Positions 3,598 through 41,553 of a stretch of 41,553 nucleotides of DNA are shown one piece after another; position 1 is the first letter of the stretch, and every line of letters starts with the position of its first letter. This stretch comes from Bacteroidota bacterium (lineage in GTDB: Bacteria > Bacteroidota > Ignavibacteria > Kryptoniales > JAKASW01): the NCBI GenBank assembly GCA_021794075.1, contig JAJYRM010000024.1, positions 1 through 41,553 on the forward strand. The letters are read 5' to 3'. The translations under genes and the position numbers were made by a program. Under the pieces are notes generated by a model that searched no databases, had not been told where the DNA came from, and saw only the letters and a list, made by a program, of their open reading frames with translations.

Positions 3598-6500
3598 TTG
3601 GCCAGAAACTGGAGCTTAGTTTGCATTATCACATTTATTGCACTGTGTCTCTGGCCTTCGAATATCAGTGCACATCAGCTTGATAACCATTCTGTAAGAA
3701 GTTCAAACGGAAGCCGAGCAAAATCGTCGTCTAATCCTTCATCAGGCCAGCTCTCATACTTGGAAAGTCAAATTTCACTAAGAGCCGAGAACATCACTTT
3801 GCGCCAGTTTTTGAACAAAATAGCTTCCAAGACTGGCGTGCGTTTTTCTTACAACAGGAAAGTGTTTCCGTTCGAGAGGAGGATCGATGTATCTGCCGAT
3901 CATGCGCGTCTATCGAGCGTTCTCAATCAGGGCTTTGAAGGGATGCGATTTAGCTGGACGGCGATGAAAGGGAAACGTATTGTAATTGTTGAAGGTGTCG
4001 GGACCAGTCAATCGAACGGCGATATCCGCGGAAAGGTACTGGATGCCAATTCAGGTGATCCTTTGCCGGGAGCCATAGTCCTCTTGAAAGGAACTAGCAT
4101 GGGCGCATCTACTGACCTGGACGGCAATTATTCGATCCGGGATGTACCTTCGGGGAGCTACCTGGTACGCGTAAGCTATATCGGTTATGTGTCCCGGGTT
4201 ATATTCGTGCAATTGGCGGCGGGTGGGAAACTCACGGAAGATTTGAAGCTGAGGCCCGTCGGTGTAAAGGGGAAGGCCGTCGTTGTCACCGCGCAGGCGA
4301 GCGGCCAGGCACAAGCCATCAATCAAGAACTATCGTCGGACAAGATTATGAACGCGGTCTCCGCAGCGAAGATTCGTCAGCTCCCGGATGAGAATGCCGC
4401 GGAATCTGTAGGAAGGCTACCGGGTGTTTTTGTTCTGAGGAAAGGAGGAGAAGGGTATAAGGTGATAATCCAGGGGATGGCTCCACAGTATAACGAGATC
4501 ATGATTAACGGCATTGAGATGGGAGCCTCCAATCCCAATGACAGGAGCACCAATTTGAGCATGATCTCCTCGAATATGCTAGAAGGTATACAGGTCTACA
4601 AGACGGTCACGCCCGATATGAATGCCAACGTCATAGGCGGAGTTGTCAACTTTGACATGCGGGAAGCGGAGGTAAAGAAACCGGGAGTGCCACAATTTAG
4701 CCTGCTGGTCCAGGGTGGATACAATAATCTTCCGGACGCATACAACAAATTCAATAATTACAAATACATCGGCAGTGTACAGGACAGACTTTTAAATGAC
4801 AAATTAGGCATCTTCGCACAGGCAGACATTGAGAGGCTGAATCTTTCTTCCAATGAGCTGTCCAGCGCTTACACACATTTCGGGAACAGCACATCCAAAT
4901 ACGCCATTTACGACGTGAATCTTTATGACATTCCTCGCGACAAACTCCTCTACAACGGCGCATTTGATTTGGATTATGAGTACTCAGGAGGATCGCTAAA
5001 ATCCATGAACTTTCTGAGTTCGAGCATTACTAACACTAATCAGTGGTACCAGCAGTTTAGTATCGGTGCCAACATGCTCTACTACGGCCTCACGGGTTCT
5101 CGCGATGTCTTGAACACAATATCGAATGTCCTTGATTTCAAGCAGGTGCTTCCGGTCTTTGACATGGAATTAGACCTGGGGCATACCTACTCGGAAACAA
5201 GGACACCGAACAACTGGGGTGTCTCGTTTTCTCAGTTGTCAGGAGGTTTGAATCTATTCAATGGTATGCAGAATGTTAGTCCTGCGACCGTTGTAGCTGC
5301 TGCTACCCCCAACTTATCCGAGGCGTACCTCTTCGGCGTCAATAACATCAACAGCTTTTCAAGAGCGAATGCGTTTACAGCGAAGCTTAACTTGAAGACC
5401 AATATCGATCTCTCGGACGCGGTTTCGGCAGTCGTAAAATTCGGGGGAGAATCCATGTTTGTGTCGAGATCTTACATATACGGTGAATATCTTGGGCAGC
5501 TCGACACAGGCGGAGCGCTCGCGGCAGATAATCTAATTAGTTCTCACTTCAACTTACCGACAGGTAATTATCTCTTGCCCATCACGGATTTTCTGGATCC
5601 ACATTTCAGATATGGAACGTTTCTCAACGGCAACTACAGGATGACTGCACCATTGAGCCTTGGCATGATATCTCAGGCGGCAGCCCTTCTGCAAAAGAAC
5701 GTGCAAACTCTTACGCCGATCTACTACCATGATCTTCATGAGTCGACGATATCGAATTACTCCGGGCATGAAAATCCCTCCGCAGTTTACGCAATGGCAA
5801 CCGTGAATATAGGACACGAGCTAGCGTTAATTGGTGGAGTGCGGTATCAGACTTTCCAGACATCTTACAGTGGCGTAGCTGGTGTCGCCAGTCTTGAGCC
5901 TCAATTTGCCTACAACCACTACGATACGACTGTCTCCCGTTTCAGAGGTTACTTTCTACCGGACGTAACCTTGAAGTATGATCCTGTGTCGTGGGCTGAT
6001 ATGCGGCTCTCGTACACAAACACCCTTGCTTATCCAAGCTACGGAGATTTTGTGCCGAAGATAGACCTGTCCGATCTGACGGATATTTGGAACAACACAC
6101 GACTCGTTCCGGCTCAATCCACTAATTACGATGCCGCAGTTTCCTTTTACAACAACACGATCGGAATGTTTTCTGCTGACGCCTTCTTCAAGCAGATAGT
6201 TGACATGATCTATTCCTGGCAGTTTTTCATCAAAGGAACAGGTTCTATGGAGTATCTGCCGACAAATTTAGCCAATTTCAATCCCAACGCCACATATTCT
6301 GTATTTACGACAGAAAACAATCCGTACCGGAATGAAGTCTATGGAATAGAGCTGGATTGGCAAACCCATTTCTGGTACTTGCCGGGTGTTCTCTCCGGTT
6401 TGGTGCTTGGGGTCAACTACACGCACACCAGGTCAAGAGCTCATTACCCATATGTATATTCATTCTCAACCGGTCGAGTTATACAGTACATTGATACTTC

Positions 6501-6834
6501 TTTTACCGACCGCATGGTTGAACAGCCGGACAACATATTCAACCTTTCAGTTGGATATGACTACGAAGGGTTTTCAATCTGGGCTGCCTTGGTCTACCAG
6601 GCCAACATCTTCACGTCACCGAGCCAGTGGCCTCAACTGAACGGGTTCACCGCGGCATACAGACGATGGGACGTTGCTGTGAGGCAGAAGCTGCCATGGA
6701 CCGGACTCGAAATGTACATGGATATTAACAACATAATCTCTGCTAACGATGTACAGGTGATCGAGGGTGGTCCTCCCACTGCAATAGAAGATTACGGATT
6801 GACAGCCGACATGGGACTTCGGTGGAAGGTATGA
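3598..6834 (+). CDS. TonB-dependent outer-membrane receptor with STN signalling domain
   Basis: This 1078-residue receptor starts at TTG 3598 with AGAAGGAG at 3582-3589. Domains in order: signal peptide (1-25); STN (secretin/TonB N-terminal) domain about 55-130 with ITLRQFLNKIASKTGVRFSY; carboxypeptidase-regulatory-like beta-sandwich about 140-225 (GKVLDANSGDPLPGAIVLLKG); plug about 235-360 (DENAAESVGRLPGVFVLRKG, IIQGMAPQYNEIMINGIEMG); and a 22-strand-type barrel to the end. The plug style is that of carbohydrate/siderophore TonB receptors, not classic SusC, and no SusD follows. STN domains usually contact a FecR-type anti-sigma factor, but none is present in the window. The gene lies 113 bases after the isomerase-like gene and is probably cotranscribed with the beta-helix gene at 7078. 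A strong paralogue is at 38350. Confidence 0.92.
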   Translation: MARNWSLVCIITFIALCLWPSNISAHQLDNHSVRSSNGSRAKSSSNPSSGQLSYLESQISLRAENITLRQFLNKIASKTGVRFSYNRKVFPFERRIDVSADHARLSSVLNQGFEGMRFSWTAMKGKRIVIVEGVGTSQSNGDIRGKVLDANSGDPLPGAIVLLKGTSMGASTDLDGNYSIRDVPSGSYLVRVSYIGYVSRVIFVQLAAGGKLTEDLKLRPVGVKGKAVVVTAQASGQAQAINQELSSDKIMNAVSAAKIRQLPDENAAESVGRLPGVFVLRKGGEGYKVIIQGMAPQYNEIMINGIEMGASNPNDRSTNLSMISSNMLEGIQVYKTVTPDMNANVIGGVVNFDMREAEVKKPGVPQFSLLVQGGYNNLPDAYNKFNNYKYIGSVQDRLLNDKLGIFAQADIERLNLSSNELSSAYTHFGNSTSKYAIYDVNLYDIPRDKLLYNGAFDLDYEYSGGSLKSMNFLSSSITNTNQWYQQFSIGANMLYYGLTGSRDVLNTISNVLDFKQVLPVFDMELDLGHTYSETRTPNNWGVSFSQLSGGLNLFNGMQNVSPATVVAAATPNLSEAYLFGVNNINSFSRANAFTAKLNLKTNIDLSDAVSAVVKFGGESMFVSRSYIYGEYLGQLDTGGALAADNLISSHFNLPTGNYLLPITDFLDPHFRYGTFLNGNYRMTAPLSLGMISQAAALLQKNVQTLTPIYYHDLHESTISNYSGHENPSAVYAMATVNIGHELALIGGVRYQTFQTSYSGVAGVASLEPQFAYNHYDTTVSRFRGYFLPDVTLKYDPVSWADMRLSYTNTLAYPSYGDFVPKIDLSDLTDIWNNTRLVPAQSTNYDAAVSFYNNTIGMFSADAFFKQIVDMIYSWQFFIKGTGSMEYLPTNLANFNPNATYSVFTTENNPYRNEVYGIELDWQTHFWYLPGVLSGLVLGVNYTHTRSRAHYPYVYSFSTGRVIQYIDTSFTDRMVEQPDNIFNLSVGYDYEGFSIWAALVYQANIFTSPSQWPQLNGFTAAYRRWDVAVRQKLPWTGLEMYMDINNIISANDVQVIEGGPPTAIEDYGLTADMGLRWKV

Positions 6835-7077
6835 ATGATATGTCTTTGTATCGCAGATGTACGGTCAGCACGCCTGAGACCCTGCACGCCTGCATCGGCG
6901 GCTGCCATCTGATCGGCAAAAAAGAAAGGATGAGAGGTGAAATTGGATTCGAAGCATTAAGTACTCTTGGAGGTGTAGTCACCAAGGGGGAAATGTTTGT
7001 GAAGTATGTTGTTTCGTCCGGGCGATTATTTTTGATCGGGAGAAATTGCAGAAAACACAAACAAAAGGACTGTCATC

Positions 7078-8811
7078 ATGAAAAGTGTATTAATCGCATC
7101 GCTTGTTGTTGCGGTCACTGTATGGCTTGCGCCTGCACGCAAGGCATTTGCTTCGACAAACGACACGCTTACGGTCTATGCGAGCGGGCCAGCCATTAAT
7201 CAGGTCATCAACGGCGACACAACCGCAGACGGCCAGCAGGCCCACAATGTGTACAGGCTCGTATCAACGGACACAACATACATCTTTTTGAATCAAATAA
7301 CACCCAAGTCGAGCATCACGGTTTTGGGCGTCCAGGGTCCGAACGGCCGGCCACCGTGCATACAACCTGGAGTCTTAAACGACGGCTCAATACCGCCAAC
7401 TTTGTTCAACATCAACCGAAAAGCGATCACGGCCACATTCAAGAATCTCCTCATTGAAGGGCTGGCGACAGATGGGTCTTTTGTCCACCCAGCTTATGGC
7501 ATACAAGTCACGGCTGATTCTGTAAGGCTTTACGTTGACAATGTCGTTTTCAGCGATGTAAGCGGGTGTGCCATCGTTTACACCGGCAACTGGGGTAACT
7601 ACTTCATAACAGATTGTACTTTCAGGGATAATGTTGACCCTGTCACCTGGACTGATGCTTCAGCGCTGGAGCCGCTGTGGCCGGCGATTGCTGCCGTTGA
7701 TTCTATTGTTATGAACGACAATACATTCTTCTGCGATAATTCTGCCGAAGTTGTCGCCAAGTATCCGGTACGATATGTCGGGTTTTCCCATAACAGCGTC
7801 GTCTTTTCGTTCATGCAACCGTTCTTCATTATGGCTTCTGAAAACGCAAAGATTGACAACAATATCTTCTATGACACTTTTGTCGGAGGAGAATTGAAAT
7901 CTCAGTACCCGTGGTGGGATGAGGAGTTCTCCCCTGCGACCCCCGCGATCATTTCCTTTGATACTATGAATGTGGCCAGCGACAGGGTGTTTGATCCGCA
8001 GGATTCCACCAAACCGAATTGGAGAATGTTGGCTGAGGCAAAGAGAGTGGTGCAGGTAGAGAATAATGATTTCTACGAGGAGTCAACCGTAACGAATTTC
8101 TGGACTTCCTGGAATGATACCTCTAAAGCTGGAGATCCCGATTCACTGTACACTCCGACGTTTATGAATTCCAGAACCGAAAATATGTTTAACGACAAGA
8201 CTGCATGGCCGGGATTCACTCAATCGGGAAACATATCAGTCAACCCTGATTACGGTGCGTCCTTTGCGAATGTACTGAAAGGTGGAGGCAACTACGGTAT
8301 TGGATTGCTCCCTTATTTCTCGTTGATAAACTCGCAGAAATCTCCGACTATTGGGTGGGGATATCAGATACAATCTATTTCTAATGGAAATTCGAACTGG
8401 ATTCCGTATTGGCCACTGCCGGAAGCCGCGGATATGCAGTACACGAATGCGGCAGTAAAAAACGCCAGCAACGATGGGATACCACTTGGCGATCCGGTCT
8501 GGTTTAACAAGGTCACTGCCGTCATGCCGTTGTCGGCACAGGTACCGACGAAGTTCGATCTGAGCAATAACTATCCGAACCCCTTCAACCCTTCAACTGT
8601 CATCAAAGTCACGCTGGCAAACGCAGGTAACATGAGCTTGGAAATCTACAATGTGCTTGGGCAGCTCGTTAAAGTAGTAGCTCAAGGTTACAAAGCTCCG
8701 GGCGTTTATACCTATAACGTATTCATGGACAACTTTGCAAGCGGAGTCTACTTCTACAGGTTACAAGAAGGATCACGCTCTATGACGAAGAAGATGCTCT
8801 TGTTGAAGTAA
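7078..8811 (+). CDS. Secreted right-handed beta-helix-like protein with T9SS sorting domain
   Basis: 577 residues, starting at ATG 7078 with AAGGA about ten bases upstream. A signal peptide (about 1-25, ending KAFAS) is followed by a region with repeated short beta-strand units: VRLYVDNVVFSDVSGCAIVY, YFITDCTFRDN, SIVMNDNTFFCDNS, AKIDNNIFYDTF, VVQVENNDFYEE. This pattern of regularly spaced D/N-N-x-F turns is typical of pectate-lyase-like parallel beta-helices. The C-terminal 80 residues (from FDLSNNYPNPFNPST) are a T9SS type A sorting domain ending MTKKMLLLK, so the product should reach the cell surface. It lies where a SusD gene would stand in a Bacteroidia locus. No catalytic residues could be assigned; it could be a polysaccharide lyase, a glycan-binding protein or an adhesin. 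Confidence 0.82.
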   Translation: MKSVLIASLVVAVTVWLAPARKAFASTNDTLTVYASGPAINQVINGDTTADGQQAHNVYRLVSTDTTYIFLNQITPKSSITVLGVQGPNGRPPCIQPGVLNDGSIPPTLFNINRKAITATFKNLLIEGLATDGSFVHPAYGIQVTADSVRLYVDNVVFSDVSGCAIVYTGNWGNYFITDCTFRDNVDPVTWTDASALEPLWPAIAAVDSIVMNDNTFFCDNSAEVVAKYPVRYVGFSHNSVVFSFMQPFFIMASENAKIDNNIFYDTFVGGELKSQYPWWDEEFSPATPAIISFDTMNVASDRVFDPQDSTKPNWRMLAEAKRVVQVENNDFYEESTVTNFWTSWNDTSKAGDPDSLYTPTFMNSRTENMFNDKTAWPGFTQSGNISVNPDYGASFANVLKGGGNYGIGLLPYFSLINSQKSPTIGWGYQIQSISNGNSNWIPYWPLPEAADMQYTNAAVKNASNDGIPLGDPVWFNKVTAVMPLSAQVPTKFDLSNNYPNPFNPSTVIKVTLANAGNMSLEIYNVLGQLVKVVAQGYKAPGVYTYNVFMDNFASGVYFYRLQEGSRSMTKKMLLLK

Positions 8812-8908
8812 AGCTAGCTGTGCTTCAGACGAAAATAATCGGCGAAACACCTGAATAGGACAGAGAGAAGAAAAGGCCGACGGACAAAAATAGAGAGAAA
8901 ACCCGAAG

Positions 8909-9131: not shown

Positions 9132-10211
9132 ATGGTGCTGGACAATTTATATAAGCTATCTAATGCTGTAAGCCGATCAATTAGTCCTGAGAACTTCACG
9201 GGAGGGAAAGGACAAGGGGGTAAGGCGACTGAAGGGACGGGTGCTGATGCATCCGCAGACCTGGGAAAAGGGTGGAAGGTGAGCCCCAGCGTGAAATTAG
9301 ATTCGAAGTCAACTTTCACATTGGGAGAGATAGATGGACCCGGCGAAATCAAGCATATCTGGATGACTGCCACAGGTAACTGGCGGCTGTTGATCTTCCG
9401 AATTTATTGGGACGGTGAAGAAGAGCCTTCAGTGGAGTGCCCTGTCGGGGATTTCTTCTGTATGGGATGGGGTAAATACTCACCATTGCAGTCATTGGCG
9501 GTAGCTGTTAATCCTGGGAACGGTTTCAATTGCTACTGGCCTATGCCTTTTCATAAGAAATGCAGAGTAACGATGGAGAATATTAGCGACCATGATGTGA
9601 TTCTATACTACCAGATCGACTATATCCTCTCAGATATTCCGGATGACGCGGCCTATTTTCACGCAACATTTAACCAGGAGAATACCGTCTCTTACAAGAA
9701 AGACTATGTGGCGGTTGAGAATATTCGCGGCAGAGGTCATTACGTCGGGACATATCTTGCGCTGGAAGCGCGCAGCAATGGATGGTGGGGGGAAGGCGAA
9801 TTTAAATTCTTCATGGATGGGGATGATAAGTTCCCCACCATTTGCGGCACAGGTGCAGAAGACTATTTCTGTGGCTCTTACAGCTTTGAGACGAGAAAGG
9901 AAAGTACACCCGGTGTAGAAACAGTTGAGTACACCGAATTTTGCAGTCCATACAGTGGACTGCCGCAAGTAATACCTGGAGATGGCCATGACAACATAAA
10001 GGAGCGGTTCGGTATGTACCGGTGGCATATCGTCGATCCAATACACTTCAAAGATAGTCTGAAGATTACGATACAGGACTTAGGATGGGGGGCTGACCGG
10101 AAATATCGCCCCAGAGAGGATCGGATTTCTTCCGTTGTGTATTGGTACCAGACCGAACCGCATATTCCCTTTCCAAAGCTGCCGCCAAAGAGTCAGTTGG
10201 AAACAAACTGA
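9132..10211 (+). CDS. GH172 (DUF2961) family glycosidase, cytoplasmic
   Basis: 359 residues with no signal peptide, AAAGGA upstream of ATG 9132. The protein matches the DUF2961 family, now glycoside hydrolase family 172: GEIDGPGEIKHIWMTATGNW, FRIYWDGEEEPSVECPVGDFF, CYWPMPFHKKCRVTMENIS, WWGEGEFKFFMDGD and CGTGAEDYFCGSYSF. Characterised members have a double jelly-roll fold and form oligomers; they cleave or transfer alpha-D-fructofuranosyl or D-arabinofuranosyl groups using two glutamates. Here E221/E223 (in WGEGEF) and E243 (in GTGAEDYF) are the likely pair. Residues 20-50 form a Gly-rich segment, consistent with the substrate-binding N-terminal portion. The exact sugar cannot be read from the sequence. 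It heads a row of genes with short gaps, up to the CBM9-like gene at 15352. Confidence 0.85.
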   Translation: MVLDNLYKLSNAVSRSISPENFTGGKGQGGKATEGTGADASADLGKGWKVSPSVKLDSKSTFTLGEIDGPGEIKHIWMTATGNWRLLIFRIYWDGEEEPSVECPVGDFFCMGWGKYSPLQSLAVAVNPGNGFNCYWPMPFHKKCRVTMENISDHDVILYYQIDYILSDIPDDAAYFHATFNQENTVSYKKDYVAVENIRGRGHYVGTYLALEARSNGWWGEGEFKFFMDGDDKFPTICGTGAEDYFCGSYSFETRKESTPGVETVEYTEFCSPYSGLPQVIPGDGHDNIKERFGMYRWHIVDPIHFKDSLKITIQDLGWGADRKYRPREDRISSVVYWYQTEPHIPFPKLPPKSQLETN

Positions 10212-10317: not shown

Positions 10318-12474
10318 ATGAAGATGACTTCTTTTTTCAGCGGCTTGATTTGTTTCTCAATCCTTTTCGCGACGATAGCATATTCGCGAAATCGGGAAAC
10401 TAGAATAAACATCTGTGGCACTGCTGGCAGTGACCTGTGCGTGCTCCTGCGCAAAAATGGTATAGGCGTAAACGTTTACCCCAATCCTCGTGAAGCGATT
10501 ACACATGCCAGCGAAGGATCAGGCGTATTCGTCTTGGCTGACGCCTATCCGAAAGGGAAAACATCTATGTCCAATAAGCTCCTCAAAACTGCGAAAGAGA
10601 AGGGGCTAAGGCTTTACGTAGAATATCCCGGTTGTTTGCCCGGATTGGACATCCGGGATACGGTAATAGCGACGAGGTGGGAAAGAGGTGTGGTTGTTTC
10701 CAAAGTATTTGGGAAGAGACTCAGCCCCATGAGCATTCTGGGAATTGGCGGTTGTCACGTTATACCTGCAAAGGTCAAGGATCCATTGGTAGTATTGGGC
10801 AGGGTTGCCGGTCTTGACAAGGCTGCGTACGGACTCAAAGGCGTCAAAACTTATCCGATCCTGTTTCGAGAAAAAAACATGCTGGTAGCAATGACCCGGT
10901 TAAGCAGCTTTGCAACCGGGCGTTATGAACCGCAACCCTACTGGAAGGCTCTGTGGCAATACATTCTGTCATGGGTATCCGGAGATAAGAACATCAGGCT
11001 TCATCGGTGGCTTTCCTATGTCTCTCCAATGTATGGGAAGAACGTACCTCTTCCGCCGGATGCAATGCAAACTTCCATACGCGAGGGGGTGCAGTGGATG
11101 TTCAACGGACATTTCTTCGTCGACTCCGCCTGGAACAAGCTGTTCTTAAAAGACCAGGGGACATCCGCATATCCTTTAGGACCGCCCGTCGGCAGATATT
11201 GGCCGAATGGGAACGGCTCCCTCGGAATTTTCGAGGGACAACTCTCACATATTCTCTATAACGGGTCTCAGCAGATTCATTATTGGGTGCGGGCCGACAA
11301 TCAGGGGCAGGTTGCCTATGCTCTTGCGGCTGCCGGGAATTATTTTAAAGAGGAACACTACTACAAGATCGCATCCAACCTTGCCAATTTCATTTTCTAT
11401 CATTCCAATCTCAGGTCAGGTCCCAAGAATGACAAGAATAGTCCGGCCTTTGGTTTTATCGGCTGGGCCACAACCACTCCTGATGTTTTTTATGGCGATG
11501 ACAATTCCAGGCTTCTGCTTGGGCTTATCGGGGCTGAAGCTTACCTGAAAACCGACAGATGGAACAAGCAAATCGCCGAATGCATAATGGCGAATTTCAG
11601 AACTACTGGCAGAGAAGGATTCCTTCGAGATCGAATCGAACAAACCAAGCTTCTGAAGCACGGATGGAAATATTACTGGGACCAGAATCTTATCAATCCA
11701 CATCCGCATTTTGAGGCATGGATGTGGGCATGTTACCTCTGGCTTTATCACGAGACTGGCTACAAACCCTTGCTAACGAAGACCGAGAACGCAATACGTA
11801 TCACAATGCAGGATTATCCGAAGAAATGGATCTGGACGAACGGGTTGCAGCAGGAAAGAGCACGCATGATTTTACCGTTGGCATGGCTGGTGCGGATCCA
11901 GGATACGCCTCAGCACAGGAAATGGTTGAATGAGGTCGTCTCCGGCATGTTGAAGTATCAGGCCCCGTGTGGCGCCATAGAGGAAGAACTTGGTACCCCG
12001 GGGAAAGGATTCTGTCCACCCCCGAAATCGAATCAGGCTTACGGAACGGGAGAGGAGCCTTTAATATTCAGGAACGGCGAGCCAGTATCGGACATGTTAT
12101 ATACCTGTAACTTCGCTTTGTTTGCTTTGAATGAGGCTGCGCACGCCACGAAAAACAAGAAATACGAAGCTGCCGAAAAGAAGCTTGCCGATTTTCTTAT
12201 CCGCATCCAAGTGCGAAGCGCAAAGCATGAAGCTCTTAATGGTACCTGGATTAGGACCTTCGACTTCGGCCAATGGGATTACTGGGGATCAAATGGAGAT
12301 ATCGGGTGGGGAGCATGGTCTACGAATACGGGATGGACGCAAGGTTGGATCGTTCCATCAATGGTCCTGTTAGAAAAGAACCAGAGCTTTTGGACGCTTA
12401 CTAAGAGGTCCACAATTAAAGATGTGATGCATCAAACCGTTAGAATCATGTTCGGAAAGAATGCGCGATTTTGA
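10318..12474 (+). CDS. Secreted unclassified (alpha/alpha)-barrel glycosidase-like protein
   Basis: 718 residues. A signal peptide (1-22) is followed by an N-terminal alpha/beta domain, about 28-215, that looks like a glutamine-amidotransferase/ThuA-like fold (INICGTAGSDLCVLLRKNGI, GVFVLADAYPKGK, LRLYVEYPGCLPGL). The rest, about 245-700, is rich in long helices with aromatic residues (REGVQWMFNGHFF, GQVAYALAAAGNYFKEEHYY, FEAWMWACYLWLYHETGYK), as in six-hairpin glycosidases. A pattern of paired acidic residues (YGDDNSRLLLGL; GAIEEELG) could be catalytic but this is not established. I cannot place it in a numbered GH family. It sits 106 bases after the GH172 gene and 104 before the GHL10 gene, so probably one transcript. 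There is no T9SS tail, suggesting a periplasmic location. Confidence 0.7.
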   Translation: MKMTSFFSGLICFSILFATIAYSRNRETRINICGTAGSDLCVLLRKNGIGVNVYPNPREAITHASEGSGVFVLADAYPKGKTSMSNKLLKTAKEKGLRLYVEYPGCLPGLDIRDTVIATRWERGVVVSKVFGKRLSPMSILGIGGCHVIPAKVKDPLVVLGRVAGLDKAAYGLKGVKTYPILFREKNMLVAMTRLSSFATGRYEPQPYWKALWQYILSWVSGDKNIRLHRWLSYVSPMYGKNVPLPPDAMQTSIREGVQWMFNGHFFVDSAWNKLFLKDQGTSAYPLGPPVGRYWPNGNGSLGIFEGQLSHILYNGSQQIHYWVRADNQGQVAYALAAAGNYFKEEHYYKIASNLANFIFYHSNLRSGPKNDKNSPAFGFIGWATTTPDVFYGDDNSRLLLGLIGAEAYLKTDRWNKQIAECIMANFRTTGREGFLRDRIEQTKLLKHGWKYYWDQNLINPHPHFEAWMWACYLWLYHETGYKPLLTKTENAIRITMQDYPKKWIWTNGLQQERARMILPLAWLVRIQDTPQHRKWLNEVVSGMLKYQAPCGAIEEELGTPGKGFCPPPKSNQAYGTGEEPLIFRNGEPVSDMLYTCNFALFALNEAAHATKNKKYEAAEKKLADFLIRIQVRSAKHEALNGTWIRTFDFGQWDYWGSNGDIGWGAWSTNTGWTQGWIVPSMVLLEKNQSFWTLTKRSTIKDVMHQTVRIMFGKNARF

Positions 12475-17238: not shown

Positions 17239-17247
17239 GCGGTGAAC

Positions 17248-28672: not shown

Positions 28673-28852
28673 TCCCTTTTCGTGAGCAGACCGGGCGTTA
28701 CAATTTGTCTGCAAGAACATTTTATCCATCTGTACCACACCGTAGAGCCGTGCGTCTAAAAGACGGGAAGGCGCTTCCTATCGTTGAACAACAATTGGAT
28801 TACACAGTCAAGGAAGAACTTACGCGGGTTAACAATCATTGGGAATTACATT

Positions 28853-30094: not shown

Positions 30095-30683
30095 CTGCGA
30101 ACTTCGCGTGGTTAGCAATCGGGCGATCAATCCTTTTTTACCGATCGTGATGTTGAAGTGAAATATTCCTGGATACATGCTTTCATCGCACCATCGTCGA
30201 CTTTCAAGCGTAACATTCATTTTGAAAAACAATAGTAGATAGCGCTTTTAAACAGAGCAGAACTCCAAGGTGACCGAAAGAAACACGAATACAGAATGAC
30301 GGGAGCCTATACGGTTTGGGTAGAGTCTTATTCGGCCACGGGTTTCCGAGGAGCGGACAATATCGATATGAATGTTCATTGCTGGCTAGTCTGTGGACAA
30401 GCTCCCATCCGCGATGGCAGAACGGGAGGCAAGCGCGGTCGACTTTTTATAACACGACTGAATTTTGGAAGGATGAAATAAACTTCTTCAGAAAGTACCT
30501 GGGTCCATTAGAACATTTGCGCTGCTAAAGACAGTAACAGACAGGATTTGCAAGCCGAGCGGGGAGCGCTTGCTCTCGGATTTAGGGAGATGAAATCGTC
30601 AAAGCCAATCGTTCTTCCGCGGACAACGGCAGGAACTGCAAGAGTCGAAATAAGAGATAGCTACAATACAAATGGGTGATAGG
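30095..30683. other. 590-base gap without recognisable genes
   Basis: Short open frames here have no ribosome site or known motif. The only feature of use is GGGTGATAGG just before ATG 30684, similar to the ribosome-site context of the genes at 17663 and 32838. Confidence 0.45.
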
Positions 30684-32762: not shown

Positions 32763-32837
32763 TGGATCTTAGATCCGACGAGGTGCTGCAATTAAGGGCC
32801 GTTCGATATATGGCCCACCAAATAGAAGGGTGATGGA

Positions 32838-34874
32838 ATGAAATTAACGGCGAAAATGGAGAAGTTCGCGGCGAGAGTCGGGAGCGTGGCGCTGGTTCTG
32901 CTCGCCCTGGCGGCAATCATGTCACTGTCGATGGGAACCGGCTGGGCTCAGGAGAACTGGACACACTACATGAGGACCTCCGGCCATGGGTTGAACATGT
33001 CGCACATCGACTCGATCATCGCCCGTGCTAAGGAGTCACACGAGTTTGGCATCGAGGTCGATAATGATATAACCGGCAGGTATGCGACCTTCATGCATCC
33101 TGCGGCGAAGCTTGCCGCGATAAGAGCTATGGCCGAAAAAGCTCATGCCGCTGGCAATCACGCATTTGTCTATATCGCCGCATTCGAATGCATAACTTCT
33201 CGCGCCGACAGCGTGAAGCACAATTTGTACGGAGACCACCCCGACTGAGTCCAAAGAAATTTCAAGGGACAGCCGGCGGTGTTCGGGCATGGAATCGCGT
33301 TCTGGGTCAGCAAGGGGGACCAGGATGCTTGGCTGACACCCTATGCGCCGGGATGGCGGAAAATCTACATGAAACGTGTTAGGCAGATCGCGGCCACAGG
33401 GATCGACGGCATCTATGTCGATATACCGTACTGGATGACGTTCTATCCGGGATGGGAGAACTCGTGGGGAAGCTTCGACAAGTACACGGTCGCGGCTTTC
33501 AAGAAAGAGACGGGGCTCAACGCAATGGATATGAAGCTTGGCGACTTCAACGACCCCACGTTCGTGCAGTGGGTGAAGTTCAGGATGAGGACGATAACTG
33601 ATTTCCTGGAGCAGGTGAAACAGAACATCAAGTCAGTGAATCCTCAATGCGAGCTGATACCCGAGATATATCCGGGCTTGGGCTCCGATCCGGTAACAGT
33701 GGGAGCGGATCCCTACCAGCTGGCCCCCGTTGCGGACGTGATCACCCACGAGTATCACGTAGGGAAGGTTTACGCGGCAGAACGCAGGCCGTTCAACTGG
33801 TACAATTTCATAACCGGCATCAAAACCTTCACTGCCTTTGCATACCCCAAGCCGACTTGGATTCTGAGCTATTCCTGGTACAAGGACAAGCATGTGAAGC
33901 CTTCCGCGGCGATGAAGAGCCTCTTCGCGTCTGAATTGTTTTCTGGCGCAAATGTCTGGGACGCCAAAGGATTCGTGATGTCTTCGTCCAATAACTTGTC
34001 GACGCGGAAAATTGCGTTCAAGTGGATCGAGAAGAATCAATACAATCTGTACGGCTCAAGGAGATACGACGTCGATCCGGTTGGAATTTACTTTTCGCCC
34101 GACACGCGCGACCTGTTCCCATACACTTATATCAACAGCTACAGGGGAATGATGCTTCTTCTGATGAACAATCATGTCGATTTCCAGATTGTTACACCGC
34201 GTACACTCCATGCATTCAAGGGAAAGCTGTTGATACTCGATAACATAAAATGCGTCGACAACAGAGAGATCCAATCCTTCAGGTCGCTCTTAAGGCGAGG
34301 CACAAGGTTTCTCGTTACCGGAAACAGTCTCTCGTACGACGACAACAGAGTCTTGCGTCTTGGCGATTACCTCAAGACCCTTTTCGGCGTCGAGGACACA
34401 TCGAATGATCTGAAAAAGGGGGAGGTCCTTTACATGACCGGCGACCCTGGCATGACCTACTACACGCTTGCCGACAGCATGATGGACGGTTACTTCAACG
34501 GCAACCAGAACGACGGGAACAAGCTCAAGAAATATTGCGGTCTCTTCGGGGAAAAACTGTCGGCATTCTGTGATACGGTACCAGGAGTGCGAGTCCACGC
34601 CCCGCTTCGCGTCATAAGCTTTGTTTCCGACACAAGAAGCAAAACCTACATAAACCTTATGGACGTAAGGCAGCTTTCAACTGTATCCAAAGGACCAGAG
34701 AATCCCGACAGGATCACGATCTCGTACAAGAAGACCCTGGGTGGACCCTGGGTAAGAGTTACGCCATTCCTGGGAGACACTTACATTATCCAGGCAGAGA
34801 GCAAAGGCGGTGATTACTCTTTTCAACTTCCGAACTTTAGCAGAGGTGCGGTGCTCTGGTTAGACAAGGATTGA
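32838..34874 (+). pseudogene. Secreted GHL6-like hydrolase interrupted by in-frame TGA at an expected Trp
   Basis: Frames 32838-33248 and 33249-34874 are the same frame, divided only by TGA 33246-33248; read through, about 678 residues. The first part has a signal peptide (after AAGGGTGATGG) and the start of a TIM barrel; the second continues FKGQPAVFGHGIAFWVSKGD, GIDGIYVDIPYWMTFYPGWE, CELIPEIYPG and ADVITHEYHVGK. From about residue 410 a GATase-like segment typical of beta-galactosidase-like trimerisation domains follows (GIYFSPDTRDLFPYTYINSY, GMMLLLMNNHVDFQIVTPRT, FRSLLRRGTRFLVTGNS). The interrupted spot, HPD-stop-VQRNFKG, is where relatives have Trp, so TGG to TGA. The barrel resembles hypothetical glycosyl hydrolase family GHL6. 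It may be a recent pseudogene, as the rest shows no decay. Confidence 0.75.
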
Positions 34875-35164: not shown

Positions 35165-35179
35165 CAGGATCAATTACTC

Positions 35180-36562
35180 ATGGCACAATGGATGGGGCGG
35201 AACAAACCTGACAGAGATAGAACGTCAGAAAGAATCATAATAACAGGAGGGATAATCCTGCTACCCGAAGGGCTGAAGCGAGCTGACCTGGAGATTGTGG
35301 ATGGGGTGATTTCAACGATAGAAGCACACATTGTTCCTGACCACCCGTGCCAGATTGTGAACGCGGAAGGAAGATATATCCTTCCTGGGTTTATCGATAT
35401 CCACACCAACGGAATTGCCGGGTTTGATTTGACCAGCGGCGTGTATGATCGGCAAAAGAAGAGTTTCACTCTCAATGAAGAAGCTTATATATCAGGATTG
35501 GACCAGGCGCTAAGAGAGTATGCGAGACGAGGTACGACGCGCGTGGTCCTATCAAGCTTAGCTTCTCCTCTCGAGGAGTTGAAGCGGGCTTTCAGCTATG
35601 CACGCGCGTACAAGGCTAGACAAACGAATGCGCCATGGGAAAGTGTACTTGGTGGTCTTTATGTTGAGGGGACATTCATGAAGTTGTCCGAGTACAGTGG
35701 GGCGCATAATCCGGATTACTTTCATGAGCCATCGGAGCGACTGTTTGATGAACTTCAGGATGCGGCCGGCGGTCTCATCAGAATTGTCAATGTGGTTCCG
35801 GAGTGGGGCGAACCGGCATTGAGACTTATCCAACACATATCTTCACGTGGAATCGTTTGTGCGGCCGGGCATACTGGTGCTACTGGCTCTCAATACTGCT
35901 TGGCGAGAAAAAGTGGGACGAAGTTGGCGGTACACTTTCTCAACGGACCGACGGGGACTTCTTTTAAGTCTTTCGACGGTGGTGGCGCAGTGGAGAGTGT
36001 CTTGCGGGCTGATGATCTGTTTGTGGAGATAATCGCAGACGGTTACCACGTTGACAAGTCTTATGTATTGGACACGATCTCTAGAAAGGGCGTTGATCAA
36101 GTCGTTGTTATCACGGACAGCATGTTTACTGCAAATTTCCCTGACATGGATCAATTTAAGGTATACGGCGTGAGTGGGAAAGTTAGCGCTGACTGTAAAT
36201 TTGTAGAAGATGCAGACAAGCCAAATACGCTTTTTGGCAGTATGCTGACCATGGACGTTGCGTTCTCAAACATGATAAATTGGCTGACTGCTGGAGTGGA
36301 CGGCGTGTGGGTCAAAAGGCACGAGTCAATCGGATTGGATTCTGCTATTGCACGAGCATCCGAGATGTGCAGCAAGAATCCAGCAAGAGTTCTGGGTATA
36401 TTCGAACCTGCGTCGGTTTGTTACGATTCCAGTTTATCCGGATTCACGGGGAGCCTTGAATCGGGCAAATTGGCCGACCTGCTCATTGCCTCGCTTGAGC
36501 TATCCGAAGGGAAATACAGACTAAACGTAGAACGTGTATATGTCGGTGGGAAAATGATTTGA
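35180..36562 (+). CDS. nagA: N-acetylglucosamine-6-phosphate deacetylase-like protein
   Basis: 460 residues, somewhat longer than usual NagA (about 380). The amidohydrolase barrel has ILPGFIDIHTNGIAGFDL (His 75, Asn 77; E. coli NagA also lacks a full HxH here), GGLYVEGTF (Glu 163), CAAGHTGAT (His 231), LAVHFLNGPTG (His 252), VVITDSMFT (Asp 313, the catalytic Asp) and NTLFGSMLTMD. These match the metal site and catalytic residues of NagA, which removes acetate from GlcNAc-6-P in the cytoplasm. Several loops differ from the classic enzyme, so another N-acetyl-amino sugar phosphate is possible. nagB-like follows 70 bases later in the same direction, giving the usual two-step route to fructose-6-P. 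The ribosome site (GCAGGATC) is distant from the ATG. Confidence 0.85.
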   Translation: MAQWMGRNKPDRDRTSERIIITGGIILLPEGLKRADLEIVDGVISTIEAHIVPDHPCQIVNAEGRYILPGFIDIHTNGIAGFDLTSGVYDRQKKSFTLNEEAYISGLDQALREYARRGTTRVVLSSLASPLEELKRAFSYARAYKARQTNAPWESVLGGLYVEGTFMKLSEYSGAHNPDYFHEPSERLFDELQDAAGGLIRIVNVVPEWGEPALRLIQHISSRGIVCAAGHTGATGSQYCLARKSGTKLAVHFLNGPTGTSFKSFDGGGAVESVLRADDLFVEIIADGYHVDKSYVLDTISRKGVDQVVVITDSMFTANFPDMDQFKVYGVSGKVSADCKFVEDADKPNTLFGSMLTMDVAFSNMINWLTAGVDGVWVKRHESIGLDSAIARASEMCSKNPARVLGIFEPASVCYDSSLSGFTGSLESGKLADLLIASLELSEGKYRLNVERVYVGGKMI

Positions 36563-36632
36563 AAGCTTTTGCGAAAACAGAGACAGAGCCTATTTTAACC
36601 AATAGAATCAAAGTTGGAAAGGAAAAAGAGGA

Positions 36633-37430
36633 TTGAGTGACCCAATTTCAAATTTCAGCATCGATAGGTTGAAGGTCGAAGTCTATGCTGACCGCCGGTC
36701 GACGGGGAGGAATGCGGCGGTGGTGGTCAGAGACAGAATTGTGAAGCTTCTTTCTGGACAGGAGAACGTGCGAATAATATTTGCAGCGGGACCTTCACAG
36801 AACGAATTCCTGGAAGAGTTATCGCTCGTTAATGGAGTCGCTTGGTCGCGCGTTGTCGCGTTCCATATGGACGAATACGTCGGACTAAAGAGAAACTCGA
36901 ATGAGCTCTGGGGAAGTTACATGAAGGAGAAACTCTTCGGAAAATTGGATTTCAAAAAAGTTCACTACCTGGATCCTGAACCGCAGGAGCCTGAGGAGGA
37001 ATGCAAGAGGTATGCTGCACTTATAGAAGAAGCGCCGATTGATATAGTGTGTTTGGGGATCGGTGAGAATGGGCACATCGCATTCAACGACCCTGGCGTT
37101 GCGGACTTTAACGACCCCGAAACCATGAAAATTGTCAATTTGGACGAGATCTGCAGGCAGCAGCAAGTGCATGACGGCTGCTTCGCATCGGTGGAGCAGG
37201 TCCCGAGACAAGCGATGACTGTGACCGTCCCCCCGATGTTGTCCGCCAATTTCTTAAGCATAGTCGTCCCTGGCCCCGCGAAAGCGAAGGCCGTGCTTGA
37301 TACTCTGAAGGGAGAAATAACCACTTCCTGCCCGGCATCGATACTGCGGCGGCACAAAGACGCAGTGCTATTTCTCGATGTGCAATCTGCAGCGGAGGTA
37401 ATGCGGCAGGGAATAGCTACTCATCATTAG
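36633..37430 (+). CDS. nagB: Glucosamine-6-phosphate deaminase-like protein
   Basis: 265 residues from TTG 36633, with AAAGGAAAAAGAGG ahead; a nearby GTG is in another frame. NagB landmarks are IIFAAGPSQNEFLEEL, VVAFHMDEYVGL (Asp 80, the catalytic base position) and LGIGENGHIAFNDPG (His 148). At the site of the usual Asp in 'DGHIAFNEP' this has Asn 146, as in a subgroup of NagB-like proteins with ENGHIAFNDP. The enzyme turns glucosamine-6-P into fructose-6-P and ammonia in the cytoplasm. PPMLSANFLSIVVPGPAKAK and a late SILRRH segment complete the fold. It forms an operon-like pair with the nagA-like gene, under probable control of the ROK repressor upstream. Confidence 0.88.
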   Translation: MSDPISNFSIDRLKVEVYADRRSTGRNAAVVVRDRIVKLLSGQENVRIIFAAGPSQNEFLEELSLVNGVAWSRVVAFHMDEYVGLKRNSNELWGSYMKEKLFGKLDFKKVHYLDPEPQEPEEECKRYAALIEEAPIDIVCLGIGENGHIAFNDPGVADFNDPETMKIVNLDEICRQQQVHDGCFASVEQVPRQAMTVTVPPMLSANFLSIVVPGPAKAKAVLDTLKGEITTSCPASILRRHKDAVLFLDVQSAAEVMRQGIATHH

Positions 37431-38044
37431 TTCATGGGAAATTGATTCCTGGTCCTTTTGGAAGTTCGCGTTTGATTTCAGTCGTGAGCAGGCGATGTTA
37501 CCTGTCGTTTGCAAGGTTACTTGCCGATATTTACATGCGTTCAAAAATCATTATACATCCGGCCGATCATCTTCTTCTGAAATGACTCAGGCATAAGATC
37601 ATCCTTAACAAACTCTGGCGGTCTCAAAGGAAGATGGGTATCTCTAGATTGCTATGATCACCCAACTTTACTTGACTTTGAAATCAAAATGGATCGTTGG
37701 GAAGCTGTGAGCTTGGTTGGCGTATGGATGAATGCAATCGTTACAAAATGCAATGGGTAGAAGTTTTATCCTTTTGCGCCTTTCGATTTAAATAACCAGG
37801 TGATTCTATATGGGGATGAGCTCACAGGCGGGTCATTGAATATGTGCCCAAGTAGGAAAACCCCGCATATCATCAAGCTAAGCGCAACCCTGCATGCCCG
37901 AATTGCACTTCCGTGGACTATTTTTCGTGGACAGTCGTTGCCCTTCGACAGAAAGCCGGACGACGTCTTCAGTCCAAAGCTAGAAATGGGCTTTTTCACT
38001 TGGAATGCGAGAGTGATATTTAAAAAAAAGTTTTTAGAAATACC
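37431..38044. other. 610-base gap without recognisable genes
   Basis: Open frames on both strands are short or compositionally unlike proteins and lack ribosome sites. An A/T-rich tract (TTTAAAAAAAAGTTTTTAG, about 38020-38038) directly precedes the promoter at 38045 and may serve as an UP element. Confidence 0.45.
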
Positions 38045-38073
38045 TTGACAATAATTGAAGGATATTATATAAT
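38045..38073 (+). promoter_or_regulatory. Perfect-consensus sigma-70 promoter of the second receptor gene
   Basis: TTGACA (38045-38050), a 17-base spacer and TATAAT (38068-38073) match the consensus at all 12 positions, with an A/T-rich tract just upstream. Transcription should begin near 38080, leaving a leader of about 270 bases before ATG 38350. Confidence 0.75.
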
Positions 38074-38079
38074 TAGGCT

Positions 38080-38349
38080 CAAGTCCGAGTGAACCGTTAG
38101 TTGTGAACCAGAAGGAGCTCCTGTCACGAACGCGACGTACCAATACACAGCCCGCTCTAACCAAATAGCTCTTCAAGCAGTTCGAGGCTCGCATTTTCAG
38201 GACGCCTCGCGTGCCGCTAGCAAAACCTTCGATTTCTTTCCCAACCTCTTATCCTCTGAGCTTGCTGTTTTGGAGTCATCTAGCACGATGACAGCTCGGA
38301 AAGAATTGATAACCCCTTTCTCTTGGTTTCAAAATTTTAGGAGATACCC
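38080..38349 (+). promoter_or_regulatory. Long 5' leader of the second receptor gene
   Basis: About 270 transcribed, apparently noncoding bases. Visible pieces are the GGAGCTCC palindrome (near 38113), CGAGGC/GCCTCG pairing around a 19-base loop (about 38181-38211), and AGGAGA at 38339-38344 as ribosome site. No known riboswitch class could be recognised; its length suggests post-transcriptional control. Confidence 0.35.
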
Positions 38350-41280
38350 ATGCGCATGATTACTTCCTTATCGGGAGAAGTCTTATTAATCTTACTTTCC
38401 CTAACAACCGTTGCCATGGGAGCTGACTCAAGCATAAAGGGGCGCGTTACTGACTCCGTAACGGGTGAGCCGCTATATGGAGCTACCGTCTTTCTCGTAG
38501 GTACAAGTCTCGGGGCGGTTACCGGTTCACACGGTCGCTATCTGATCCCGAGCGTCCCACCCGGGACTTATGAGATGCGTACTACCTATATCGGGTACAG
38601 AAAAGTGGAAGAACAAATAACCGTCGCTTCAGCCGCCCAGCTAGTGCGGGATGTGAAATTGGTGGCTGTTGGCGTACACAAAAAGGGTGTCGTAGTGACC
38701 GCCCTTGCCAGCGGTCAGAATCAGGTCATCAACGAAGAGCTTGCATCAAACCAGATAATGAATGCTGTTTCAGCTAAGAGGATACAGGAGCTACCGGATC
38801 AAAATGCGGCCGAATCCGTGGGAAGACTTCCGGGCATATCTGTCTTGCGCAGTGGAGGGCAGGGGACGGAACTTGTCATTCGCGGGATGGCGCCACAATA
38901 CAACGAGATACAGATTGACGGAATTCAAATGGCATCATCCAATCCCACCGACCGAAGCATTGACCTGAGTGGGATCTCGTCAAACATGCTTGGAGGCATA
39001 AAGGTATTCAAAACCGTGACTCCCAACATGAATGCTGACGTAATGGGGGGAACGGTTGATTTCAGCTTGCGCGAAGCGCAAACAGGCCACTCCGGGGTCC
39101 CGACGATACATCTCCTTGCCCAGGGCGGTTACAAAAGCCTTTCTGATGCTTACAATAAATTCAACAACTACAAATATGCGGGGACGGCCGAAGAGAGGTT
39201 TTTCAATGACCGATTCGGGATTCTTGCTCAAGTCGATATTGAGCGTCAAAATCTAACTTCGAATGAATTAGGTGCCGCTTATAATCACCTCGGAAATAGT
39301 TTGACGCAATACATCACTACCGGTCTGACGTTGAGCGACATACCGAGGGATATCCAACGACGTAATGCTGCTCTAGTGATGGATTATCAACTCCATAATG
39401 GAAGCATTAAGTTCACGAATTTCCTAAGCTCTTCTCTGACTAGCGACATTACCAGGCAGCAGACATACGACGTGACTGATAATGAACTTATTTACTCGCT
39501 TTCCAATACTGGCGGCACCGGTCTGGATTTAATCAACGGATTGGAATTCAAGCAGTCTTTTTCCGCGTTTCATGTCGATGCCAAAGTGTCACAAGCGTAT
39601 TCGCAGAGCGGTGGTCCTTATTGGTCCGTGGGTTTCAGTCAGCTGTCAAATGCCGGCCTGTCGCCGTTCGACAATCAGGCCAATGTCAACCCGATACAGG
39701 TTCCCAAGGCCGCAACACCGGACTTGGCGAACACATTGCTGCAATCTCTGTATGCAGACAACTCATTCTCCAAGTCGCACGTCTGGTCGGGCTCTCTTGA
39801 CCTCGCCCAAGATGTCGCCTTTTCAAAATTGGTAAATGCAAAGATAGAGGTCGGTGGTATGTACAGGTATACTAACCGCTACTACGCTGTAAATGTCGCC
39901 GACGGCGGTGGTCTTCAGTTTGCCGGATCTGGAGTGGTCAATGATCTGATAATTAACATGTTCAATCTGCCGGCATCGGCCAAGTACCACATCCCCATAG
40001 GCGATTTCACCGACCCAAGCTACAACTACGGGAAATTCCTCGGTGGTACATATCAAATGACCGAGCCGCTGAATTACGGAGTCATATCCAGAATGATGGG
40101 AATGTTACAAGACAGCATTCAATATATCGCAAATAATAACGGTACCCAGGCCTTCAGCCACGATAATCTCAATTCGACAACAAACAATTACGTAGGGAAC
40201 GAGAACGAGTGGGCGACATACGCGATGGCGGTGATAAATGTTGGACCGGATTTGACCATACTGCCGGGAGTTCGCTATCAGGATCTTCGGACCACCTACA
40301 CCGGCGCTCGCGGCATAGAAAGTCGTAACGCGTTCTTGGTATATAACCACTACGATACAACCGCTGTCCAAAATCACGGCTACCTCCTCCCCGACATTTC
40401 TTTAAGATATAAACCGCTTTCGTGGTTCGATGTCAGGGTGTCGTATACCCATACATTGGCATATCCCTCCTACAGTTACATCATACCTAGAATTGACGTA
40501 GGCGTGGGGGCGATTTCCTGGAACAATTACAAACTGCTTCCGTCCCGCTCCACCAACTATGATATTGATTTCTCGGTTTACAATAACAATATCGTCGGTG
40601 GTCTTATCACGGTCGGTGGTTTCTGGAAGAATATTCGCGATCTGGCCTATCCCTGGACTTTCTTCGTCTCTGGGACACAGGCCCTTCAGTATTATCCCCA
40701 AAGTCTTCTCAGCTCGACAAGCCCGCCGTCCGGGACTTACCAGATCAACTCTACTATCAACGACTCGGATGTGATACATGATTATGGTATCGAACTCGAC
40801 TGGGAAACGCATTTCTGGTATTTGCCCGGGGTATTATCGGGTTTGGTCCTTGACGTCAATTACTCGCACATATTTTCCAAAGCGCAATATCCCTACTCTA
40901 TGGTCCAATCGAACGGACGTTCGATAGATTATGTCGACACTTCTTTCACGGACCGGCTCCTATACCAGCCGGACAACATCTTCAACCTCTCCCTCGGATT
41001 TAACTATGAAGCGTTCATGATCAGGGTGGCGTGGCTATATCAGGACAATATCTTCACGGGTCCCAATTTCTGGCCACAGCTCAGAAACTACACGGCTGCA
41101 TACAGTACATGGGATTTGGAATTTCAACAGGGACTCCCGTGGCACGGGCTGCAGTTGTACGGCGATATATACAATCTCAATGGCGCCAACAGCGTGAGCG
41201 TTATTCAAGGAGGCGGAGTACCGATATCCGAGTCTGATTATGGTGCGACAGCAGACCTGGGTCTCCGTTACCAATTTTAG
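38350..41280 (+). CDS. TonB-dependent outer-membrane receptor without STN domain
   Basis: 976 residues, ATG 38350 after AGGAGA. Signal peptide 1-24; carboxypeptidase-regulatory-like domain 27-110 (IKGRVTDSVTGEPLYGATVF); plug about 120-240 (DQNAAESVGRLPGISVLRSG, LVIRGMAPQYNEIQIDGIQM, SSNPTDRSIDLSGISSNMLG); barrel to the end, closing with GLRYQF, the terminal Phe being typical for outer-membrane barrels. It is a clear paralogue of the receptor at 3598, sharing long runs such as AYNKFNNYKY and ETHFWYLPGVLSGLVL, but lacks the STN signalling domain. No SusD gene follows; instead a secreted DOMON-like protein begins 83 bases later. A consensus promoter and long leader lie upstream, so it is probably separately and strongly expressed. 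Substrate: presumably an oligosaccharide of this locus. Confidence 0.93.
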   Translation: MRMITSLSGEVLLILLSLTTVAMGADSSIKGRVTDSVTGEPLYGATVFLVGTSLGAVTGSHGRYLIPSVPPGTYEMRTTYIGYRKVEEQITVASAAQLVRDVKLVAVGVHKKGVVVTALASGQNQVINEELASNQIMNAVSAKRIQELPDQNAAESVGRLPGISVLRSGGQGTELVIRGMAPQYNEIQIDGIQMASSNPTDRSIDLSGISSNMLGGIKVFKTVTPNMNADVMGGTVDFSLREAQTGHSGVPTIHLLAQGGYKSLSDAYNKFNNYKYAGTAEERFFNDRFGILAQVDIERQNLTSNELGAAYNHLGNSLTQYITTGLTLSDIPRDIQRRNAALVMDYQLHNGSIKFTNFLSSSLTSDITRQQTYDVTDNELIYSLSNTGGTGLDLINGLEFKQSFSAFHVDAKVSQAYSQSGGPYWSVGFSQLSNAGLSPFDNQANVNPIQVPKAATPDLANTLLQSLYADNSFSKSHVWSGSLDLAQDVAFSKLVNAKIEVGGMYRYTNRYYAVNVADGGGLQFAGSGVVNDLIINMFNLPASAKYHIPIGDFTDPSYNYGKFLGGTYQMTEPLNYGVISRMMGMLQDSIQYIANNNGTQAFSHDNLNSTTNNYVGNENEWATYAMAVINVGPDLTILPGVRYQDLRTTYTGARGIESRNAFLVYNHYDTTAVQNHGYLLPDISLRYKPLSWFDVRVSYTHTLAYPSYSYIIPRIDVGVGAISWNNYKLLPSRSTNYDIDFSVYNNNIVGGLITVGGFWKNIRDLAYPWTFFVSGTQALQYYPQSLLSSTSPPSGTYQINSTINDSDVIHDYGIELDWETHFWYLPGVLSGLVLDVNYSHIFSKAQYPYSMVQSNGRSIDYVDTSFTDRLLYQPDNIFNLSLGFNYEAFMIRVAWLYQDNIFTGPNFWPQLRNYTAAYSTWDLEFQQGLPWHGLQLYGDIYNLNGANSVSVIQGGGVPISESDYGATADLGLRYQF

Positions 41281-41309
41281 GCGACGGGTGAAAAGAGATA
41301 GAAATCTGG

Positions 41310-41336
41310 CATGCACTCTGCGAGAGCGGGTGCATG
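41310..41336 (+). terminator. Intercistronic hairpin between receptor and following gene
   Basis: CATGCAC (41310-41316) pairs with GTGCATG (41330-41336) around a 13-base loop that itself contains CTC/GAG. It sits between the receptor stop and the AAGGAG of the next gene. It may adjust the relative levels of the two proteins. Confidence 0.35.
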
Positions 41337-41363
41337 AGCTACCAATAATAAAGGAGATACATC

Positions 41364-41553
41364 GTGAAGACCAAACTTACCATCTCAGTGCTGGCTCTTC
41401 TATTTGTGGTACCAACGGCTTGGGCTCAAATTACTATCAACGGTAATTTCAGTGACTGGAAAGGGGTATCCCCTTACGTAACCAACAGTACAGCGAACAC
41501 GACATGGGGACCAAACGGCACATTCACCGCCGGTTACTACGTGGCGGGAGCCG
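41364..41553 (+). CDS. Secreted CBM9/DOMON-like protein, 3' end outside window
   Basis: GTG 41364, with AAGGAG eight bases before, opens a signal peptide (MKTKLTISVLALLFVVPTAW, cleavage after AQ) and continues ITINGNFSDWKGVSPYVTNS. An opening of 'I.i.G..sDW.gv.p' is typical of CBM9/DOMON-like carbohydrate-binding domains. 63 codons are seen. By analogy with the protein at 15352 it may carry a T9SS tail, but that is not visible. Its place directly behind a receptor suggests that it is the receptor's surface partner. Confidence 0.65.
   Translation, partial: MKTKLTISVLALLFVVPTAWAQITINGNFSDWKGVSPYVTNSTANTTWGPNGTFTAGYYVAGA

Follow-up and report, generated by a model that had tools for sequence, protein, structure and literature searches.

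A TonB-dependent receptor paired with a T9SS-tailed, predicted beta-helix protein, without SusD, in Ignavibacteria and other classes of Bacteroidota

What accompanies a TonB-dependent receptor at a glycan-related locus that has no SusD? This question is raised by a window of 41,553 nucleotides, which is the whole of one contig (C16) from a genome of the class Ignavibacteria (4.53 Mb in 240 contigs). Bacteroidetes, Ignavibacteriales, and Ignavibacteriaceae assemblies and Stygiobacter electus are the nearest relatives of this genome, in keeping with that class. The window encodes two related TonB-dependent receptors on the forward strand, receptor 1 (3598-6834) and receptor 2 (38350-41280), and a profile search of the window's proteins found no match to a SusD family. 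A preliminary description, made from the sequence alone, had recognized both of these features. It added that each receptor is directly followed by a secreted beta-rich protein: a beta-helix protein with a sorting tail for the type IX secretion system (T9SS), at 7078, and a DOMON/CBM9-like protein, at 41364. It proposed that a receptor and such a partner could be an alternative surface-capture unit for glycans. We will argue that half of this proposal was right. The beta-helix protein (7078-8811, forward strand), whose family we call B, forms a conserved and co-inherited two-gene unit with the receptor, without SusD, in Ignavibacteria and in other classes, and this is strongly supported. The DOMON protein as a second substitute for SusD did not hold up.

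We collected 80 loci with a B protein from across the phylum: 60 belong to the same class and 20 to others. These were picked by B alone, ignoring the receptors, and B was matched by its body without the T9SS tail (alignment A2). A receptor adjoins B in 77 of the 80 loci: it is upstream in 75 and downstream in 2, and 3 loci have none. Most of the upstream receptors (72) are directly adjacent to B; two are separated from it by a second copy of B and one by a gene with a Spherulin4 domain. Within the class, the receptor is upstream and on the same strand in 58 of 60 loci, directly so in 55. (The intervening gene is the second B in loci L130 and L179 and the Spherulin4 gene in L171; L-numbers denote the loci that we compared.) In the other classes, the receptor is upstream in 17 of 20 loci, directly downstream in 2, and missing in 1. 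With about 20 such receptors in a genome of 4.53 Mb, the pairing expected by chance is well below 1%. The genome has over 100 T9SS tails, so we considered whether B and the receptor are adjacent by chance simply because T9SS cargo is common. We reject this explanation because the counts use the tail-less body of B.

We also counted from the receptors' side. In 15 further genomes from the class, B follows 52 of the 58 full-length members of the receptor clade for which the sequence continues (by a hand tally from coordinates). In the window's own genome, B follows 16 of 17 receptors. (The sixteenth is receptor 2, whose B lies on another contig, C56, as discussed below.) Four weaker relatives of these receptors have no B. 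In three loci (L151, L199, and L202), antisense open reading frames masked the real genes, which we recovered with a six-frame search; L199 is counted on that basis. The preliminary description's proposal hinged on partners being conserved beside such receptors in related genomes, and for B these counts confirm it.

The arrangement of the genes varies somewhat. Receptors of the clade without an adjacent B are found at L047, L063, L079, L220, L221, and L224-L226. Two B genes in tandem follow one receptor at L130, L172, L178, and L179, and the usual order is inverted at L059, L214, and L216, where B immediately precedes the receptor. At L072 (G000 contig C5, about 38071-41013), a clade receptor has one in-frame TAA and the downstream B is intact; this receptor could be a pseudogene or reflect an assembly error.

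The two genes are not just adjacent. Across 100 pairs, the patristic distances in the receptor tree and the B tree are correlated with a Mantel r of 0.90, and the best of 500 permutations gave 0.22. For the 10 receptor-B pairs of the window's genome, r is 0.95, which none of 5000 permutations matched. Because this correlation is within one genome, species history cannot be its cause. Meanwhile, the flanks vary across the 80 loci: the gene most often found after B encodes a GH18-like chitinase (identified by motif) and is present in only 9. Genes that recur upstream of the units encode ROK regulators, FecR-like proteins, and sigma factors. As the receptor and B are co-inherited while their flanks change, we consider them to be the constant core of these loci, as SusC and SusD are in Bacteroidia.

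We then examined the receptors. Receptor 1 has a weak N-terminal match to STN, followed by a CarboxypepD_reg domain, the plug, and the barrel. Receptor 2 is its paralog: the two are 49% identical across 972 residues, from the carboxypeptidase-like domain through the plug to the last barrel strand, in keeping with the relationship that had been described. The best curated family for both is TIGR01782. Receptor 1 scores 278.5 bits and receptor 2 scores 294.8 bits, both below the cut-off of 310 bits; the genome's other paralogs from this clade reach as much as 390 bits. Against the SusC model (TIGR04056, with a cut-off of 368 bits), receptor 1 scores 58 bits and no match is listed for receptor 2. 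When the whole genome was scanned with the SusC model, the TIGR01782-type receptors of the window scored only 50-66 bits. By these profile scores, both receptors are outside the SusC family. An AlphaFold2 model of receptor 2 (pLDDT, the predicted local distance difference test, 84.2; pTM, the predicted template modelling score, 0.79) is closest to the solved folds of BtuB, Fiu, and FhuA, with Z scores of about 32-34 (about 34 for BtuB and Fiu). (Our AlphaFold2 models are of single chains.) The best 50 structure matches of receptor 2 include no SusC or RagA chain, which is not proof that the folds differ.

Elsewhere in the window's genome there are two true SusCD pairs. Exactly two proteins exceed the cut-off for SusC, on contigs C97 (510 bits) and C188 (479 bits); each is followed by SusD, and these are the only SusD matches in the genome. 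The same genome has about 20 TIGR01782-type receptors without SusD. A SusD gene just beyond position 41553 had been named as a finding that would overturn the proposal. We rejected this candidate, as there is no SusD on C56, the presumed continuation of the contig, and the genome's SusD genes occur only with true SusC. The absence of SusD from the window is not a loss, because its receptors belong to another family.

Is B related to SusD? The window's B has a signal peptide, a predicted right-handed beta-helix at about residues 28-480 (a body of about 480 residues, with a weak match to Beta_helix), and a T9SS type A sorting domain at residues 499-573 (8572-8796, forward strand). The tail is above the cut-offs for both PF18962 (3.8e-10) and TIGR04183 (9.3e-12). 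An AlphaFold2 model of B (from an alignment of 33 sequences; pLDDT 84.8, pTM 0.77) has a right-handed beta-helix and a terminal beta-sandwich, so the protein at 7078 was correctly described. None of the SusD families (PF07980, PF14322, and PF12771) matches the window's B or any of 71 diverse B proteins. Also, B has no lipobox, and by eye there is no cysteine at its signal cleavage site, so neither its predicted fold nor its anchor is that of SusD, which is an alpha-helical, TPR-like lipoprotein. PF18962 is found in 69 of the 71 diverse B proteins, and the genome encodes the T9SS translocon, with two SprA genes (TIGR04189) above the cut-off. We infer from sequence that B is probably exported to the cell surface and kept there. 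A search of solved structures with the sequence of B gave matches to the tail only, plus two weak ones at chance level.

We consider it fairly probable that the receptor and B form an outer-membrane unit for capture and import, similar to SusCD, in which an unrelated surface partner that is delivered by T9SS captures the ligand and hands it over. In this scenario, the receptor (of TIGR01782 type and with a fold like BtuB or FhuA) would be the TonB-driven channel. B would cross the inner membrane by means of its signal peptide and the outer membrane by means of T9SS, and would be held close to the receptor with which it is paired. The beta-helix would there bind an oligosaccharide produced by the cluster's exported enzymes and pass it to the receptor. 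We infer that the receptor and B are in contact, that B binds a ligand, and that this ligand is a glycan; the co-inheritance is indirect support for the contact. Because the pairs seem to have duplicated and diverged together, each pair probably has its own ligand.

Several points weigh against this scenario. First, about 10% of the receptors in the clade have no adjacent B. Second, related loci are not independent, and 10 of the 60 loci from the class are from the window's own genus. Third, we join C56 to the window by synteny with L034 and a repeat in common, without an exact overlap of the ends. Finally, because the T9SS can also release its cargo into the medium, retention of B at the receptor is our supposition. 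A more specific proposal, which we offer tentatively, is that B is a pedal-bin lid on the receptor, that is, an independently evolved counterpart of SusD that is delivered by T9SS instead of as a lipoprotein, and that such pairs are the main route of oligosaccharide import in Ignavibacteria and several related classes.

Alternatively, B could be a general surface glycan-binding protein, with a role like that of SusE or SusF, that raises the local concentration of the ligand without forming a complex with the receptor. The position of B in the gene order is that of surface glycan-binding proteins in polysaccharide utilization loci, and T9SS export would suit such a role. Also, 10 of the 71 diverse B proteins contain CBM35, and a few members are weakly similar to DUF4957 (best E = 1.1e-4) or DUF5123 (best E = 0.002). 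(These matches are below the cut-offs in the members that we tabulated, and the window's B has no match to either family.) However, whether SusCD systems have surface glycan-binding proteins, and of which kind, differs widely, while B is retained in about 90% of cases and its tree tracks the receptor tree even among the paralogs of one genome. This makes a general binder rather unlikely.

Another possibility is that B is an extracellular beta-helix enzyme, either a lyase or a hydrolase, that cleaves glycans without contacting the receptor and happens to be the usual first enzyme in such clusters. Beta-helix folds are frequent among pectate, alginate, and capsule lyases, many of which are among B's structure matches, and B is located amid glycosidase genes. 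But the best fold match for B is not a catalytic domain. The match is to the C-terminal beta-helix of BcAlyPL6, an alginate lyase from PL6 (7dmk residues 422-747; Z = 30.4, root-mean-square deviation of 2.8, 302 residues aligned, 15% sequence identity), and the corresponding domain of Patl3640 ranks second (Z = 24.9). In AlyGC, which is also from PL6, the C-terminal domain mediates dimerization and lies over part of the active site (PMC6879350). In the bodies of the 71 diverse B proteins, Asn, Asp, Tyr, Trp, and a single His (89%) make up the well-conserved polar positions. No position retains Lys, Arg, or Glu in 75% or more of them, as would be expected of the base of a lyase, and the catalytic Lys/Arg pair of beta-helix lyases (PL6 and others) is not conserved. 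This speaks against a lyase and leaves some room for an enzyme. Furthermore, one would not expect an enzyme for a single type of bond to be the only gene that stays constant while the accompanying glycosidases change. Overall, we view an enzymatic role without receptor contact as unlikely.

The neighbouring genes are informative about the ligand. On the forward strand, a sugar isomerase similar to L-fucose isomerase (2153-3484; PF02952, 5e-7) is encoded upstream of receptor 1. After B, on the same strand, are genes for a DUF2961 protein (9132-10211; PF11175, 1.7e-92), presumably from glycosidase family GH172; a T9SS-exported protein that is similar to GHL10 glycosidases by family search and has Golvesin domains (12579-15209); a T9SS-exported protein that is DOMON/CBM9-like by eye only and has no Pfam match in its body (15352-17238); and an AmpG-like inner-membrane transporter of the major facilitator superfamily (17663-19000), which is a recurrent neighbour of such units. 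Further along the forward strand are a ROK-family (NagC/Mlc-like) regulator (28784-30094), which is the commonest class of regulator beside such units, and then, upstream of receptor 2, a NagA-like amino-sugar phosphate deacetylase (35180-36562; TIGR00221, 160 bits) and a NagB-like amino-sugar phosphate deaminase/isomerase (36633-37430; TIGR00502, 130 bits), both of which score below the cut-offs. The cluster of receptor 1 also encodes a 718-residue protein (10318-12474) with a signal-like start and no match in Pfam. Two large proteins of 696 and 531 residues (30672-34874), upstream of the NagA- and NagB-like genes, have at most sub-threshold similarity to GHL10 and might be unclassified glycosidases. 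If the capture-and-import scenario is correct, receptor 1 and the B at 7078 would serve one cluster.

These neighbours bear on whether the receptors import something else, such as metal complexes, cobalamin-like ligands, or peptides, with B as the matching surface binder. BtuB, Fiu, and FhuA are the nearest folds to the receptor, and TIGR01782 includes receptors whose ligand is unknown. But the neighbours are mostly glycosidase-like, sugar-regulator (ROK or LacI), or sugar-catabolic genes, so we consider non-glycan import very unlikely.

We now turn to the gene after receptor 2 (41364-41553, forward strand), which has a GTG start and is cut by the end of the contig. In another locus, L034, the receptor is 95% identical to receptor 2 and the order of genes is receptor, Spherulin4 protein, B. 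The middle protein has 743 residues, with a T9SS tail, a Spherulin4 domain (E = 3.5e-43), and the same CBM9/DOMON-like start, so the gene at 41364 had been classified correctly. (We take Spherulin4 to be family GH135, acting on galactosamine-containing polymers.) In the window's genome, contig C56 (locus L086) matches L034 across 5857 bases (87%), and its first bases fall within one of the tandem copies of the CBM9-like domain. The contig also encodes a Spherulin4 (GH135-like) domain, and after that gene comes the B of receptor 2 (C56:2790-4526). We did not find an exact overlap between the window's end and C56. Tandem repetition of the CBM9-like domain at the start of C56 may account for the break. 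The tandem CBM9/DOMON-like copies occupy positions 1-900 of L086 and probably broke the assembly at 41553. The simplest reading is that C16 breaks within this repeat and continues as C56, in which case 41364 would be the start of a T9SS-exported CBM9/DOMON-like and Spherulin4 (GH135-like) protein.

We therefore rejected the DOMON/CBM9 protein as an alternative partner: it appears to be the N-terminal module of an exported Spherulin4 enzyme that is encoded between receptor 2 and its B, which is an added enzyme and not a constant partner. So only receptor 1 is directly followed in the window by its conserved beta-rich partner. That either the beta-helix protein or the DOMON/CBM9 protein can replace SusD, as first proposed, is suggested by the CBM9/DOMON-like starts right after receptor 2 and its relatives in L034 and L036 (where the sequence ends inside that gene) and by a related protein after the receptor in L035, but it is hardly credible, because B follows that gene in L034, L035, and C56, the order in L060 is receptor, B, and then a CBM9/Spherulin4 relative, and the L034 and C56 proteins contain the Spherulin4 domain. 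The Spherulin4 enzyme and the NagA- and NagB-like genes suggest that the cluster of receptor 2 may target an amino-sugar polymer. In the capture-and-import scenario, receptor 2 would serve this cluster together with its B on C56.

How does the receptor-B unit compare to known systems? Like SusC/SusD (or RagA/RagB), it has a TonB-dependent receptor and an adjacent, dedicated, and co-inherited partner, probably at the surface, amid sugar regulators and glycosidases that are exported. (For SusCD utilisomes, see PMC7618045.) Unlike in SusC/SusD, the receptor is not from the SusC family, and the partner is a beta-helix protein with a T9SS tail while SusD is an alpha-helical lipoprotein. Another comparison is to BtuG, a beta-propeller from Bacteroides. 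BtuB works with BtuG as a surface lid, distinct from SusD, for vitamin B12 (PMC10404256), so a receptor with this type of fold can take a lid partner. However, BtuG is a lipoprotein for vitamin B12, and B is a T9SS-tailed, predicted beta-helix protein beside glycan genes. Glycan receptors without SusD are known from Xanthomonas (PMC1790865). The receptors of the carbohydrate utilization loci containing TonB-dependent receptors (CUT loci) in Xanthomonas and Caulobacter are from the same family (TIGR01782), in carbohydrate clusters without SusD; unlike those, the receptors here are accompanied by a constant partner. To our knowledge, neither T9SS nor a B partner has been reported for CUT loci. 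Also, although B's closest fold is found at the C-terminus of the two-domain alginate lyases of PL6, B stands alone, without the catalytic N-terminal domain, and it has a T9SS tail and is beside a receptor. DUF4957/DUF5123 proteins resemble only a few members of B, and weakly. In open-access papers, we found no description of a T9SS-exported partner for such receptors (including for DUF4957/DUF5123 or for TIGR01782 with T9SS), which is not proof of novelty; apparently, the unit has not been described so far.

In a metagenome study, susCD was scarcely detected in the clusters of Ignavibacteriales and was absent in Kapabacteria, and no answer was stated as to how Ignavibacteria import the products of glycan degradation (PMC10576277). 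Ignavibacteria carry many glycosidase clusters, and the receptor-B pair offers an import route for their products. The pair is also a marker for finding the polysaccharide loci of Ignavibacteria. If our proposal is correct, then B would represent a second origin of the partner-assisted glycan receptor, and it would tie T9SS to the uptake of nutrients right at the receptor.

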